Source: Spirochaetales bacterium (GTDB lineage Bacteria; Spirochaetota; Spirochaetia; Treponematales; UBA12059). Taken from it: a stretch of DNA of 59,395 bases. The stretch spans positions 70,014 through 129,408 of the forward strand of contig JAFGJV010000014.1 in assembly GCA_016928955.1 (NCBI GenBank), written 5' to 3'. Made by a program: the position numbers and the translations under genes. Numbering within the stretch: position 1 is the stretch's first letter; each line of letters begins with the position of its first letter. Shown piece after piece: positions 52,162 through 57,682 of this stretch. Below the pieces are notes generated by a model, which saw only the letters and a program-made list of their open reading frames with translations, was not told the origin of the DNA and searched no databases.

Positions 52162-52282
52162 CCCTTAAGGGAACCTCTAAAAACCCCATGGTTATTAGAG
52201 GTTCCCTGCGTTTTCGGCCGAAAACGCTAGGTTTTTTAAGGTAACCCTCTAAAAACTGAAGTTTTTAGAGGCCCCCTTAAGC
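52162..52282. repeat. palindromic repeat element, copy B, with inverted termini
   Basis: About 120 bp. The left terminus CTTAAGGGAACCTCTAAAAA (52164-52183) matches, inverted, the right terminus read on the minus strand, CTTAAGGGGGCCTCTAAAAA (18 of 20). Inside lie a 13-bp stem AGGGAACCTCTAA/TTAGAGGTTCCCT, the palindrome CGTTTTCGGCCGAAAACG (52209-52226) and the dyad CTAAAAACTGAAGTTTTTAG (52249-52268). Copy A at 6811 shares the right half. The layout is MITE-like. Its right end overlaps the last codons of the aminopeptidase gene. Confidence 0.78.
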
Positions 52283-53388
52283 GCCTCGGGATTGAGACCG
52301 GCCAGCTCGGGAACCACAAAGAGGCCGTCCTTGCGCACCAGGCGGCCGTCGAACCACAGTTCGCCGCCGCCGAACTCGGGCGTCTGAATCAGGACCAGGT
52401 CCCAGTGCACGGCGGAGCGGTTGCCGTTGAAGCAGTCGTCGTAGCTGTTACCCGGCGTAAAGTGGATGGAGCCGGCTATCTTCTCGTCGAACAGGGTTTC
52501 CTTCATGGCTTTGGTGATGTACGGGTTGACGCCAATGGCGAACTCGCCCACGTAGCGCGCGCCTTCGTCCGTGTCCAGCACGCGGTTGATGCGCTCGTTG
52601 TCGTTGCTCGTCGCCTTGACGATCTTGCCGTCCTTGAACTCGAAACGGATGCTCTCGTAGGTAAAGCCCTCGTGCTCGCTCGGCGTGTTGTATGCTATGA
52701 CGCCGTTGACCGAATCGCGGACGGGCGCCGTGTACACCTCGCCGTCAGGTATGTTCAGCTTGCCGTCGCACTTGACCGGCGGCAGGCCCTTGATGGAGAA
52801 CGACAGGTCGGTGCCCGGCCCCACGATGCGCACGCGGTCGGTGGCGGCCAGGATTTTTACCAGGGGATCCATGGCAGCGCTCATCCTGGCATAGTCCATG
52901 GTGCACACGTCAAAGTAAAAGCGCTCAAAGGCGTCCTCGCTCATGCCCGCCATCTGGGCCATGGCGGCCGTGGGATAGCGGAGCACTACCCAGCGCGTGC
53001 CCGGCAGGCGCGTGTCGATATGGACCTTTTTCCAGATGTTTTTGTTGTACAGGTCCATCTTGTCGCCCGGCACGTCGCCCATGGCGTTCATGTTGCGGAT
53101 GGCGCTGTAGCCTATGTAGCACTGCATCTGGCTCATGCGCTGGCGCTCGAATTCAGCCTGGAGCTCCACCTGCTCGGGCGGCGCGTCCATGAGCAGTTCC
53201 CGGTCCAGGGTCTTGTCCCTCAGGGTGACAAAGGCCCGTCCGCCCGCCTTGTGCACGGCCCTGACCAGGGCGCGGTCAAAGGCCGGCTCTATGCCCGTAT
53301 CCTGAATGAGCACGTTTTCCCCGGGCTGCACGCGCACGGAATAATTGACCAGAATGTCCGCCAGTCGCTCGGCTCTCGGATCCAGCAT
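52249..53388 (-). CDS. M29-family aminopeptidase
   Basis: 379 residues, ATG behind AAGGAGG. Family features: YSVRVQPGENVLIQD near the N-terminus; metal ligands in DGKLNIPDGEVYTAPVRDSV (Glu), the EHEGFTYE segment, GEFAIGVNPYITKAMKETLF, IHFTPGNSYDD and AVHWDLVLI (His/Asp). It should be a cytosolic zinc- or cobalt-dependent aminopeptidase (AmpS/PepS type). The last eight residues (GASKNFSF) are encoded by the repeat element at 52249-52282, so the original C-terminus was probably replaced. The core ligands are unaffected. Monocistronic. Confidence 0.92.
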   Translation of the reverse strand: MLDPRAERLADILVNYSVRVQPGENVLIQDTGIEPAFDRALVRAVHKAGGRAFVTLRDKTLDRELLMDAPPEQVELQAEFERQRMSQMQCYIGYSAIRNMNAMGDVPGDKMDLYNKNIWKKVHIDTRLPGTRWVVLRYPTAAMAQMAGMSEDAFERFYFDVCTMDYARMSAAMDPLVKILAATDRVRIVGPGTDLSFSIKGLPPVKCDGKLNIPDGEVYTAPVRDSVNGVIAYNTPSEHEGFTYESIRFEFKDGKIVKATSNDNERINRVLDTDEGARYVGEFAIGVNPYITKAMKETLFDEKIAGSIHFTPGNSYDDCFNGNRSAVHWDLVLIQTPEFGGGELWFDGRLVRKDGLFVVPELAGLNPEALKGASKNFSF

Positions 53389-53636
53389 GATGTCCTCCTT
53401 GATTTTGCGCGGGCGCCAAGCCCCGGCACTCCGGAGCCAAACAGCTCAAACGCTTCCGGTGGCGCCACGCGCAGACAGCATAGCATGGCCACGTCGTTTT
53501 GAAAACTTGAACGTCCGCAGGACAAGACGCTTGCATCCGAATTTTCCCTAGGCGCCGCGTCCCTGCCCTGGCTATCATAGAATCGTTCGCCGTATCCCCT
53601 AGGAGAGGCGCAGAGCACGTCACGCAAGGAGGCCGT

Positions 53637-53711
53637 ATGTCCCGCATATCAACACTGGAGTTTGCGCGCGGTGGGGACCATCGGCTTCCGGGAGCGTCAC
53701 TGCTTCCCTGA
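53637..53711 (+). CDS. candidate 24-residue small ORF in the RIO kinase leader
   Basis: ATG at 53637 is preceded by AAGGAGG at 5-nt spacing, the best ribosome site in this intergenic region. The frame encodes MSRISTLEFARGGDHRLPGA followed by SLLP and a TGA. A -10-like TATCAT (53573-53578) lies 59 bp upstream of the ATG. It is followed by a strongly structured stretch before the RIO kinase gene, so it may be a regulatory leader peptide. The evidence is the ribosome site and position only. Confidence 0.45.
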   Translation: MSRISTLEFARGGDHRLPGASLLP

Positions 53712-53725
53712 AACAAGCCCATGGA

Positions 53726-53866
53726 TCCCCACGGCGGGGACTGAACCGCGTCCGCGCAAGGACGGTTCGGTCATAACGCAGCGACGATACCGTGCCAGCC
53801 GCCGGGCGTGAGCCCGCACATGGCTGAGGTAAGGCCCGTGCGGCCTGCCCGGTGGCGTCGTCGCCC
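53726..53866 (+). ncRNA. structured RNA leader upstream of the RIO kinase gene (candidate)
   Basis: Successive hairpins in about 140 nt: TCCCC/GGGGA (53726-53740); a 7+4-bp stem with a GC bulge and loop GCGCAA (53741-53770); a nested stem TACC/GGTA, CAGCC/GGCTG and CGGGC/GCCCG capped by the GNRA tetraloop GTGA (53788-53831); GGCC/GGCC (53833-53845); and GGCG/CGCC (53854-53865). The GTG of the kinase gene follows at 53887. The nested stem with a GNRA loop is hard to explain as coding DNA, and no long ORF fits here. It could be a riboswitch-like or protein-bound leader; I do not recognise a known class. Confidence 0.45.
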
Positions 53867-53886
53867 GGCCAACGAGGGATCCCATC

Positions 53887-54675
53887 GTGGACGACGAGGA
53901 AATTTTCGAGCAGTTTGAGGCCCGCGCCATCATTACGGGCGGGCGGGAACGCATAAAAAGCGGCAAGGAAGCCGTGGTGTACCGTTGCGACGCCCATCCG
54001 GCCACGGGCCTTTCACACGTGGCGGTCAAAGTGTACAAGGACGTGCAGACCAGAAGCTTCCGCCACATGAACACCTATCTGGACGGCCGCATTGGCCGGA
54101 CCATACGCAAGCGCAGGGACATACTCCACATGCTGGCCAACGCTGACGAGCGCCAGCATTTCTGGGTGTCCACGGAATTAGGCGCCTTAGAGACCCTGTA
54201 CGCAGCCGGCCTGCCCGTGCCCCGGCCCCTGGGCTCGGCGGGAACGGCCATTGCCATGGAATTCGTGGCGCATGATGACGACGATGAACCCGCCCCGAGG
54301 CTCAGGGACCTGCGTCCCGACTCGGACCTGGCCCAAACCCTGGAGCGGGATGCCGTGGCCTTGATCGAGAACATGCTGGCCCACGACATCATCCACGGGG
54401 ACCTGTCTCCCTATAACCTGCTGGTCAGGAACGGGCGCCTCATGGTCATAGACTTTCCCCAGGCGGCGGACGCCCGCTATTCAACCCAGGCACAATTTTT
54501 CCTGGCCCGCGACACGGCCAACGTTCTGTCCTATTTCCGGGAGCTCGGCGCGGGGCCGGACGCCGCTCGCCAGTCCGCGAATGAGCTTGCCGCCGGCCTA
54601 TGGGACCGCTGGGAATCCGGTGATTTGTACCTTGCACGGGACGCGGCCGCCGTGGCCCGTGCCTGGGGGCTGTAA
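53887..54675 (+). CDS. RIO-type serine/threonine kinase
   Basis: 262 residues from a GTG behind GAGGG. Kinase motifs of the RIO family: Gly-poor loop IKSGKEAVVYRC, catalytic Lys48 (HVAVKVYKD), catalytic loop IIHGDLSPYNLL with Asp172, and metal-binding MVIDFPQA with Asp189. RIO kinases act in ribosome maturation in archaea and eukaryotes; the bacterial members are little studied, and a translation-related role is a guess. Its leader is unusually long and structured. Stand-alone gene. Confidence 0.88.
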   Translation: MDDEEIFEQFEARAIITGGRERIKSGKEAVVYRCDAHPATGLSHVAVKVYKDVQTRSFRHMNTYLDGRIGRTIRKRRDILHMLANADERQHFWVSTELGALETLYAAGLPVPRPLGSAGTAIAMEFVAHDDDDEPAPRLRDLRPDSDLAQTLERDAVALIENMLAHDIIHGDLSPYNLLVRNGRLMVIDFPQAADARYSTQAQFFLARDTANVLSYFRELGAGPDAARQSANELAAGLWDRWESGDLYLARDAAAVARAWGL

Positions 54676-54793: not shown

Positions 54794-54979
54794 ATGGCGG
54801 AGAGGATAGGCGATTTTCTTGTACGCATCGGCGCCATGACGCAGGAGCAGGTCACCAAGGTCCTGGCGGCGCAGAGCCAGGAAGAAGAACCCCGGATGTT
54901 CGGAGAGATAGCCATAGAGCTGGGTTTTGTCGACGACGCTGCCCTGAAGCGCTACGTGACCGAAAAGCACGGCGGCTGA
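54794..54979 (+). CDS. small MshEN/GspE-N-domain-like protein
   Basis: 61 residues from the ATG at 54794 behind GGGAGGG. The sequence RIGDFLVRIGAMTQEQVTKV followed by LAAQ resembles the first half of the MshEN c-di-GMP-binding motif (RLGxxLVxxGxxxxxxLxxAL). A second similar segment, MFGEIAIELGFVDDAALKRY, completes a helical mini-domain usually found at the N-terminus of type II secretion or pilus ATPases. Here it stands alone. It may be a nucleotide-sensing or adaptor mini-protein. Binding of c-di-GMP is an inference; two c-di-GMP domains are encoded 5 kb upstream. Confidence 0.65.
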   Translation: MAERIGDFLVRIGAMTQEQVTKVLAAQSQEEEPRMFGEIAIELGFVDDAALKRYVTEKHGG

Positions 54980-55045: not shown

Positions 55046-57496
55046 CTACGCGCCCGGCTTTCTAGGTTTTGGCGGCCGCTTATCCCTGGAGGGGGGCCGC
55101 TTGTCGGTAGATGACGGCCGCCGTTCCTTGGAAGGCGGCCGTTTTTTGTCCGCCAAGGCATCGGAGCGCGGGCGTCGCCCGGAAGATCCTGCCTTGCCTG
55201 GCTGGGAGCCGGGCCGTCTGGAGCCAGCCGGGTTTCTGCGGCCGGACTCGTCCTTTTCGAACCACTGGGGCTTGCCGCCCCGGCCAGGCCGCCCGGCCTC
55301 TTTTTTGGCCTTGAGCACCGCCGCCTCGTAGCGGGCCGCGCTAGCCGCTTTGGCCCCGGCGGACGAGGCTCCCGGCTTGCTTTCCGGGCGGGAACCGCGG
55401 CGGCCCGAGTCCGCGGCTCCGTACACGCGCTGGCCTTCCTCGTCGGCCTGCCAAAAGCCGTCTTTCCAGTTGAAGCGGCTGGTTTCCGGCAGCACCAGGC
55501 CGTCCCTGGCCGCCGCCATCACGCGCTTGTATACCTGTTTCTTGAGGTCGATGAAACTGAAATCCAGGATGAAACGCCCCACGCCCTCTTTCCGGAAGTA
55601 GGGCATTCTGTCCACCAGCGAAAAGGGCTTGACCGGTATCACCGTTGATCCGGACTGGTCGGTCACCAGCTCGTAGTCGTCGCCGTCTCGGTCGCGGAAG
55701 AAGTGGAAGCCGTGGGTCTGGCCCAGGTCGGCGCGTATGGTGAACAGGGGCGGGTAGGCGAACACCGTGGGGAAGAAGACCGAAGGCTGGACGGTTTCCG
55801 CCACCTTGGCCCAGTCCTGTTTGGATATCTCCAGGGGCGGCACGACGCTCGAAGCGCCGTTGTCCAGGAGAAAGGCCGCGGCCCATGCGTTGAACGTGTA
55901 CAGCCAGGGGCCGGCAGCCACCGGCAGGTTCTTGCCCCGCAGGATGCCCAGGTGGCCCAGGTTGTTGGCTATGAAGTGGCGCTGCCCCTTGCCGGCCCAG
56001 TAGTCTATCTCGTCGGCCAGCCAGACGGCGTCCGCCTGCGGGAAGAAGGGTTCCAGCCAGATGGCAAGCTCGTCGCCCTTGAAGGGCAGTTCCTTCTCGT
56101 GGCGACGCATGAGCTCGGCGTTCTTGCGGGTCAGCCGGATGATGGCCTTGCGCGGCCGGTCTGCCTGGAGGACGTGGAGGTCCTGGACCCTGGATACCAT
56201 GGCGTAGGTTCCGTCCGGCCAGGCCGGGGTCCTGGTTTTTGCCTGTTCCGGCACGGCCGGTATCGGGGCCGCGTCCCAGCTCGGGAAGGCGTGGTAGCGG
56301 CTCAGGTTGGGGGGCAGGACCGGCTTGTAGCGCCTGGCCAGGTTCCGGGTCTGCACCAGGTACACCTCGTCCTGGGGACCGTACTCAGCGTCCGCGCGGA
56401 CAAAGAAGCCTTCCGGCAGGGTTTTGACACCGCGCACCTTGGCGGTGACGCGGCCGGAGTCGTCATGTTTGTGGATGCGGAGCGAGTCGCCTTCCTGGAT
56501 GCCGTCGTAATGGGGCAACTGCATCCAGCGCTGGTCGTCGAACACCCTGATCAGCTTGACCTTGCCCAGGGCTATGCCCGTGCCGCCGGCCTGGTCCGGG
56601 CGGATGAAATCCTGCGCAGGGCTGCCCTCGAACCAAAAGGTGGTCTTGCGCCGGGCAAAGTCGCCCTGCAGCATGGACAGGGCCTTGGCGGCCGCGCGCT
56701 CACGGTCAAAGCGCCAGTTGTCCAGCATGTGGCGGTACGCGGCCACCACCGTGCCCACGTACTCGGCGCTTTTCATGCGGCCCTCGATCTTGAACGAGGT
56801 GATGCCGGCCTCTACCAGGTCGGGCACCTTTTCTACCAGCTGGAGGTCGTCCGGGCTGAAGAAGTAGCCGTCCTGGTCGTCTTCCGAGCGGAACATGCGG
56901 CGGCAGGCCTGGGTGCACGCGCCTCGGTTGGCCGAGCGTCCGCCAAGGTAGCTTGAGAACAGGCACACCCCTGAGGCGCTGACGCACAAAGCGCCGTGCA
57001 CGAAGGTTTCCAGCTCCATGGCCGTGGAGCTTCGCACGTCCCTCATCTCGTCCAGCGACAGCTCGCGGGACAGGACCACCCGCTTGAAGCCGTGGCGCGA
57101 CAGGAAATTGACGCCGGCGGCGCTGCCCACGTTCATCTGGGTGGACGCGTGGAGCCGCAGGGCGGGGAAATGGTCGCGCGCCATCTTGACCACGCCGAGG
57201 TCCTGGACGATCACGCCGTCCGGGCCGACCCGCTCCAGGTACTGCAGGAGCTGGTACATGCGGTCGGCCTCGCGCTGTTCGAACACCGTGTTGACCGTGA
57301 CGTACAGCTTCTTGCCTGCCTTGTGCAGGGCCTCCGTGGCGGCTTCAAACTGGCTGTAGGCAAAGTTGCTGGTGCGCAGGCGGGCGTTGAAGGTCTTGAG
57401 GCCCAGGTATACAGCGTCGGCGCCTTCGCCAATGGCGGCGTCGAGGGCGTCCGGATTGCCCGCGGGAGCCAGAAGCTCGGCGGTGGTATAGGTCAT
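55046..57496 (-). CDS. U32 peptidase-family protein with long basic tail
   Basis: 816 residues from the ATG at 57496 (AGGATAG before it). The core is a U32 TIM barrel (ELLAPAGNPDALDAAIGEGA), with FVHGALCVSASGVCLFSSYL and GRSANRGACTQACRRMF giving the family signature and its Fe-S-type cysteines. A second half has a beta-barrel-like extension. U32 members (RlhA, TrhP) hydroxylate rRNA or tRNA, so RNA modification is more likely than proteolysis. The last ~120 residues are low-complexity, Lys/Arg/Pro/Ser-rich, with repeats such as DKRPPS and KRPPSKERRPSS, probably an RNA-binding tail not typical of the family. Confidence 0.9.
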   Translation of the reverse strand: MTYTTAELLAPAGNPDALDAAIGEGADAVYLGLKTFNARLRTSNFAYSQFEAATEALHKAGKKLYVTVNTVFEQREADRMYQLLQYLERVGPDGVIVQDLGVVKMARDHFPALRLHASTQMNVGSAAGVNFLSRHGFKRVVLSRELSLDEMRDVRSSTAMELETFVHGALCVSASGVCLFSSYLGGRSANRGACTQACRRMFRSEDDQDGYFFSPDDLQLVEKVPDLVEAGITSFKIEGRMKSAEYVGTVVAAYRHMLDNWRFDRERAAAKALSMLQGDFARRKTTFWFEGSPAQDFIRPDQAGGTGIALGKVKLIRVFDDQRWMQLPHYDGIQEGDSLRIHKHDDSGRVTAKVRGVKTLPEGFFVRADAEYGPQDEVYLVQTRNLARRYKPVLPPNLSRYHAFPSWDAAPIPAVPEQAKTRTPAWPDGTYAMVSRVQDLHVLQADRPRKAIIRLTRKNAELMRRHEKELPFKGDELAIWLEPFFPQADAVWLADEIDYWAGKGQRHFIANNLGHLGILRGKNLPVAAGPWLYTFNAWAAAFLLDNGASSVVPPLEISKQDWAKVAETVQPSVFFPTVFAYPPLFTIRADLGQTHGFHFFRDRDGDDYELVTDQSGSTVIPVKPFSLVDRMPYFRKEGVGRFILDFSFIDLKKQVYKRVMAAARDGLVLPETSRFNWKDGFWQADEEGQRVYGAADSGRRGSRPESKPGASSAGAKAASAARYEAAVLKAKKEAGRPGRGGKPQWFEKDESGRRNPAGSRRPGSQPGKAGSSGRRPRSDALADKKRPPSKERRPSSTDKRPPSRDKRPPKPRKPGA

Positions 57497-57575
57497 CGGT
57501 CTATCCTCAGGGTCGGTCCGGCCCGCCCCCGTGGCCGGCCGCTCGGATGCAAGGCCAGCCTTGTTCCGAAACCGC

Positions 57576-57604
57576 ACTATAGCGTTTTTTCGGTTTACTG
57601 TATA
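57576..57604 (-). promoter_or_regulatory. promoter of the U32 gene
   Basis: Minus strand TATACA (57604-57599), 17-bp spacer, TATAGT (57581-57576), about 80 nt before the ATG. Confidence 0.6.
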
Positions 57605-57682
57605 CACCGCGAAAAACAGGGATAAAACGCATAGAACGGCAGGGCCAGGCGCCTGAGAACGACTGCAGGGCAAAGCCCTGCC

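Follow-up and report, generated by a model that had tools for sequence, protein, structure and literature searches.

A leader open reading frame with alternative RNA pairings as a probable translational attenuator of bacterial RIO kinase genes

The stretch of DNA analysed here, hereafter the window, comprises 59,395 nucleotides (nt) from a Spirochaetales bacterium (GenBank assembly GCA_016928955.1, contig JAFGJV010000014.1, positions 70,014 to 129,408) and encodes a RIO1-type kinase preceded by a leader that holds a short open reading frame (ORF) with its own Shine-Dalgarno sequence (SD) (Table 1). On comparative and modelling grounds, this leader is probably a ribosome-operated translational attenuator of the erm/toiL type. 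The kinase belongs to the RIO1 domain family PF01163, with a match of 116 bits against a cut-off of 22 (E 1.8e-33) and intact catalytic motifs, and its closest solved structures are those of archaeal Rio1. Similarity to the APH family PF01636 is weak (26.1 bits, cut-off 23.2). The RIO1 fold family is shared with the PA4780 family of RIO1-like kinases (NF041645), outside which the window kinase falls at 142.7 bits against an equivalog cut-off of 350. A first-pass annotation had read a 24-codon ORF with AAGGAGG ahead of a RIO kinase gene starting at GTG, and both the sequence and the PF01163 match bear this out. Its description of dense pairing also held: the predicted folding energy of the 315-nt leader is -143.3 kcal/mol, whereas its dinucleotide shuffles give -129.7 ± 5.4 (z -2.5), and since only 1 of 100 shuffles folded as well, the pairing is above chance.

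Table 1. Features of the kinase leader and gene, in window coordinates.
Feature	Position	Strand	Details
Promoter-like site	53549-53578	+	TAGGCG, 18 nt, TATCAT; weak, window p 0.05; -10 ends 58 nt before leader ORF
SD of leader ORF, AAGGAGG	53626-53632	+	-11.4 kcal/mol with 16S 3′ end
Segment 1, GGAGGCCG (leader ORF SD)	53628-53635	+	Pairs with segment 2; probability 1.00 in transcripts ending 53690-53714; p 0.018 against shuffles
Leader ORF	53637-53711	+	24 codons, MSRISTLEFARGGDHRLPGASLLP, stop TGA; positional counterparts in 13 other leaders
5′ arm of alternative 2:3 stem, GGTGGGGACCATCGGCTT	53670-53687	+	Overlaps segment 2; 53685-53717 pair 0.98 once 53740 is transcribed
Segment 2, CGGCTTCC (within leader ORF)	53682-53689	+	Partner of segment 1
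Segment 3, AAGCCCATGGATCCCCAC	53715-53732	+	Directly after leader stop codon
Spacer hairpins	53739-53831	+	Between leader ORF and kinase; without counterpart in other leaders
Segment 4, GGGATCC	53876-53882	+	Overlaps kinase SD GAGGG (53874-53878); can pair with GGATCCC 53723-53729
RIO1-type kinase gene	53887-54675	+	262 aa; GTG start 53887, stop ends 54675; GKEA, K48, HGDLSPYN and IDFPQ present

RIO kinases are rare in the order of the window (8 of 394 genomes) and in its class (8 of 395). Leaders were examined in relatives from the order and class, in four distant genomes and in plasmid-collection records, and 18 bacterial RIO kinase loci (designated by L numbers) had enough upstream DNA to be judged; L002, L006, L029 and L031 were left out because of contig ends or a broken gene. 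Of the 18 loci, 14 carry one dominant ORF of 16-42 codons, located 70-250 nt before the kinase start and equipped with a very strong SD, whose pairing to the 16S 3′ end is worth -10.3 to -15.3 kcal/mol. Within the class these are the window, L004, L005, L019, L020, L023, L027, L028 and L030; elsewhere they are L015 (Armatimonadota), L016 (Thermomicrobiota), L017 (Chloroflexota), L033 (Nonomuraea, Actinomycetota) and L032 (Deinococcus, Deinococcota), such that the layout spans six phyla including the lineage of the window. The strong-SD ORF ranked top in every intact leader with this layout. Of 157 genes in a control set from the same DNA, 14 were flagged with such an ORF; since 11 of these were RIO loci, the rate among other genes is about 3 of 146. 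No such leader ORF was found at the remaining four loci, namely L018, L003, the PA4780 family member L034 and its Paraburkholderia relative L035; in this the last two differ from the window kinase.

An SD of this strength could simply gather ribosomes that then proceed to the kinase, with the hairpins being incidental. Such translational coupling or reloading would suit L032, where the kinase begins 12 nt after the ORF, and L016, where the two overlap, and reinitiation at leader peptides has been proposed (PMC4833913). However, 42-190 nt separate the ORF from the kinase in most leaders, and coupling leaves unexplained both an SD-closing helix and an exclusive second helix with two-sided changes, described below; we therefore regard it as unlikely.

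The leader peptides are similar within a genus (MQDIHHTIGRLRRTAL and MKDIHPTIRRLRTSAL) and share no sequence between clades, which argues that the layout is what is kept. The resemblance within genera would also be expected if the ORF encoded a small protein with a function of its own and the RNA pairing were a by-product, but the pairing scheme persists between clades where the peptides share nothing, and this explanation is extremely improbable. The peptides of L027, L028 and L030 share M-x-x-I-x-x-T-[IV]-x-R-L-R. The RLR resembles macrolide-arrest motifs, and was not used as evidence because it lies in segment 2, where the bases are also constrained by pairing. A blastn search of 59 genomes with the window leader returned itself and short chance matches only. 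A covariance model of four close leaders found no further leader of the same kind in 294 genomes, and none of nine weaker matches that were inspected had the leader layout, most being the starts of signal-peptide-like proteins. The same model gives no score for the window leader; thus conservation does not extend to the primary sequence. No relative turned up in phage records or viral contigs. In a tree of the kinases, the leader-bearing members fall in several RIO1-like groups with weak deep forks, so the leader may have had one origin or several. The kinases of L019, L020, L023 and L005 carry an extra N-terminal extension of ~45-60 residues, acidic then basic, which the window kinase lacks. 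At L031/L036 (G782:C332) the C-terminal half of a RIO-like kinase lies in frame with unrelated repetitive sequence, the gene being either broken or misassembled.

Three pairings recur in these leaders: the ORF SD with the 3′ part of the ORF (1:2), that part with the segment after the stop codon (2:3), and the post-stop segment with the kinase ribosome-binding site (3:4). The 1:2 pairing is possible in every leader, with a combined p of 1e-11 against dinucleotide shuffles, or 3e-6 with one leader per clade. The corresponding values are 1e-8 and 1e-4 for 2:3, and 2e-6 and 8e-4 for 3:4, the latter being strongest in L019, L020, L023, L027 and L030. When the growing transcript of the window is folded, segment 1 is fully paired with segment 2 until the ORF stop has been made, and 53670-53687 pairs with 53715-53732 (0.98) once 53740 is transcribed. 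Across leaders, 13 of 14 have a closed SD when the transcript reaches the ORF stop, and 2:3 then gains in about half. The minimum-free-energy fold of 53610-53887 combines 1:2 with 3:4 (GGATCCC at 53723-53729 with GGGATCC at 53876-53882), while the ensemble still favours 2:3. Closure of the kinase ribosome-binding site in one state is thus found in the combined statistics, and in the window itself only as a predicted fold.

Four relatives (L005, L019, L020 and L023) could be aligned. In this alignment the 2:3 helix has 12 pairs, with 91.7% of cells paired and 5 pairs showing two-sided changes, whereas a one-base slide leaves ~30% paired; moreover, RNAalifold recovers the helix unprompted. In the 1:2 helix, two-sided changes occur at 3 of 7 pairs. 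Both helices use alignment columns 48-54 and are therefore mutually exclusive. Compensatory changes had been proposed by the first-pass annotation as the check on its stems. They occur in these two helices, while the hairpins that it had singled out near 53741-53770 and 53788-53831, although present in predicted folds, have no counterpart elsewhere, and several other leaders are too short to hold them (42-130 nt from ORF stop to kinase). Its reading of a folded regulatory RNA survives as far as a regulatory leader is concerned, backed by the six-phyla layout, the two-sided changes and promoter-like sites; the emphasis on a riboswitch-like RNA capped by a GNRA loop does not. A ligand-binding riboswitch or protein-binding RNA built of the spacer hairpins would account for a leader that folds better than its shuffles, but the hairpins are not conserved, spacer length is highly variable, blastn gave no relative of the leader in 59 genomes, and the Rfam scan that had been suggested matched no family to the window leader at gathering or relaxed thresholds, so that it is not a known Rfam cis-regulatory RNA. 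We consider this alternative very improbable. The conserved element is the strong-SD ORF together with the pairings of its two ends, rather than the GNRA hairpins.

We modelled the ribosome as a 31-nt unpairable footprint, shifted codon by codon along the ORF. The energy needed to open the kinase site rises once the modelled ribosome passes ~codon 5 (codon 7 in the window), where segment 2 becomes covered. Opening the kinase site costs on average 1.9 kcal/mol less with the ribosome at codons 2-3 than with it in mid-ORF; the difference is seen in 11 of 12 leaders, and none of 60 shuffle sets reaches it (null 0.11 ± 0.38). In the window alone, the early minus mid-ORF value is -3.35 against 0.21 ± 1.18 kcal/mol, and 5 of 400 shuffles reach it.

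Most of the 14 leaders have promoter-like sites (TTGnnn, 17-18 nt, TAnnnT) whose ends fall 28-61 nt upstream of the ORF (combined p 9e-12, mononucleotide shuffles), and the ORF is therefore probably the first thing on the transcript. A start downstream of 53830, which would have removed the leader from the message, is argued against by their position just upstream of the ORF. The -35 of the window is poor, and a standard promoter scan of the + strand returned no site. The terminator scan of the + strand found no terminator-like site, that is, no stem followed by a T run before the gene, and this favours translational control. Alternatively, translation of the leader might determine whether transcription undergoes Rho-dependent termination or continues, the structures then acting on RNA polymerase or Rho; the leader is long, and in toiL-topAI translational closure causes Rho to terminate within the target gene (PMC12121999), so the two layers could operate together. 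Nevertheless, with no terminator-like site on the + strand and a 3:4 pairing aimed at the kinase ribosome-binding site, we judge transcription attenuation to be quite improbable here.

The features expected of an attenuator of the ermC or toiL kind are thus present: an SD-bearing short ORF ahead of the gene, a promoter-like site upstream with a shared transcript predicted, and exclusive helices involving the ORF; that ribosome position alters access to the target site is seen in silico only. We infer that the ORF is translated. Without a ribosome, 1:2 would close the leader SD and 3:4 the kinase ribosome-binding site, and the kinase would be off. A ribosome travelling through the ORF would cover segment 2, in which case 3:4 would still form and the kinase would stay off. 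Stalling at the start codon or soon after it, within about codons 1-5 (1-7 for the window), would place the ribosome over segment 1 and leave segment 2 free to pair with segment 3, releasing the kinase site and switching the kinase on. The kinase would then be made when initiation succeeds and early elongation fails, as may happen with start-codon-arresting antibiotics, missing aminoacyl-tRNA or defective ribosomes. We are less confident of this direction of switching, and of the inducer, than of the kind of mechanism.

Several points weigh against translational attenuation as set out above. The weakest link is that, in the window alone, neither the 2:3 nor the 3:4 pairing exceeds shuffles, owing to the high GC content of the leader. 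The covariation comes from 4 sequences only. The early versus mid-ORF contrast was picked after the per-codon profiles had been seen, and several analyses were designed once the pattern was seen. L028 fails the ribosome-position test, and L027, L033 and L015 are not distinct from shuffles in it. Moreover, a ribosome bound at the start or stop codon gave no clear opening of the kinase site relative to the ribosome-free state (start: p 0.15-0.19); the modelled ON state stands out mainly by weaker closure than with the ribosome in mid-ORF, and is only weakly more open than the ribosome-free state. Lastly, the strong-SD ORF is missing from the 257 nt before the kinase of L003 (G002), though this locus is from the same genus as L004 and has a close kinase; here the leader seems to have been lost or replaced.

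Upstream of the leader, an M29-type peptidase gene lies on the opposite strand (52249-53388), so that 53389-53886 holds two divergent gene starts and the kinase leader. Directly after the kinase, 54794-54979 (+) encodes a small protein of 61 aa (MAERIGDFLVRIGAMTQEQV...) that has an SD of its own and matches no Pfam family. This is followed by a long ORF at 55046-57673 (-), which on reading looks like a U32-type peptidase and whose C-terminal tail is basic, of low complexity and rich in KRPPS-like repeats. The genes flanking RIO kinase loci are not conserved, as judged by reading ORFs.

The leader shares with the macrolide-inducible attenuator ermC a short ORF with its own SD and the logic of 1:2 and 3:4 against 2:3. 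The target of ermC is a 23S methylase rather than a RIO1-like kinase, and its sensitive position is codon 9, whereas the modelled position here is the start codon and codons 1-5, since segment 1 is the leader's own SD. In ermC, efficient translation of the leader closes the target ribosome-binding site and a stalled ribosome opens it (PMC5418344). The toiL upstream ORF of Escherichia coli topAI-yjhQ is similar in spirit, as tetracycline and retapamulin hold ribosomes at its start codon and the target ribosome-binding site opens (PMC12121999); the RIO kinase leader differs in having segment 3 beyond the ORF stop. The leaders of ABC-F resistance genes of the vmlR/vga(A) type also contain ORFs that sense ribosome arrest at start codons, as summarised in the same source (PMC12121999). 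Their targets, unlike that of the present leader, are ABC-F ATPases, and vmlR additionally uses transcription attenuation (PMC9226507). Our literature search, largely without subscription papers, found no link between RIO kinases and leader peptides, and the first-pass statement that bacterial RIO kinases have no known RNA control stood up to it. The RIO kinase is a target class without a previously known leader-ORF translational attenuator.

To our knowledge, the role of RIO kinases in bacteria has not been established. Yeast Rio1 inspects the 18S rRNA 3′ end (PMC11045238) and, by analogy, a ribosome-linked role of the bacterial kinase would fit a leader that reads ribosomes. Extending the analogy, the leader might be a small-subunit gauge, in which a near-perfect SD held by an internal anti-SD mimic would be opened only by intact 16S 3′ ends and the RIO kinase would act on the same subunit. 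This is distinctly unlikely; if true, bacterial RIO kinases would be quality-control factors for the ribosome, regulated through feedback from its function. In summary, the attenuator proposed here would place a kinase under leader-ORF control, which is otherwise best known for resistance and biosynthesis genes. A leader that reads ribosome position would indicate under which conditions the kinase is needed, and these point to translation stress or ribosome quality control; the occurrence of its layout in six phyla is a hint that RIO kinases, poorly understood in bacteria, respond to disturbed protein synthesis.
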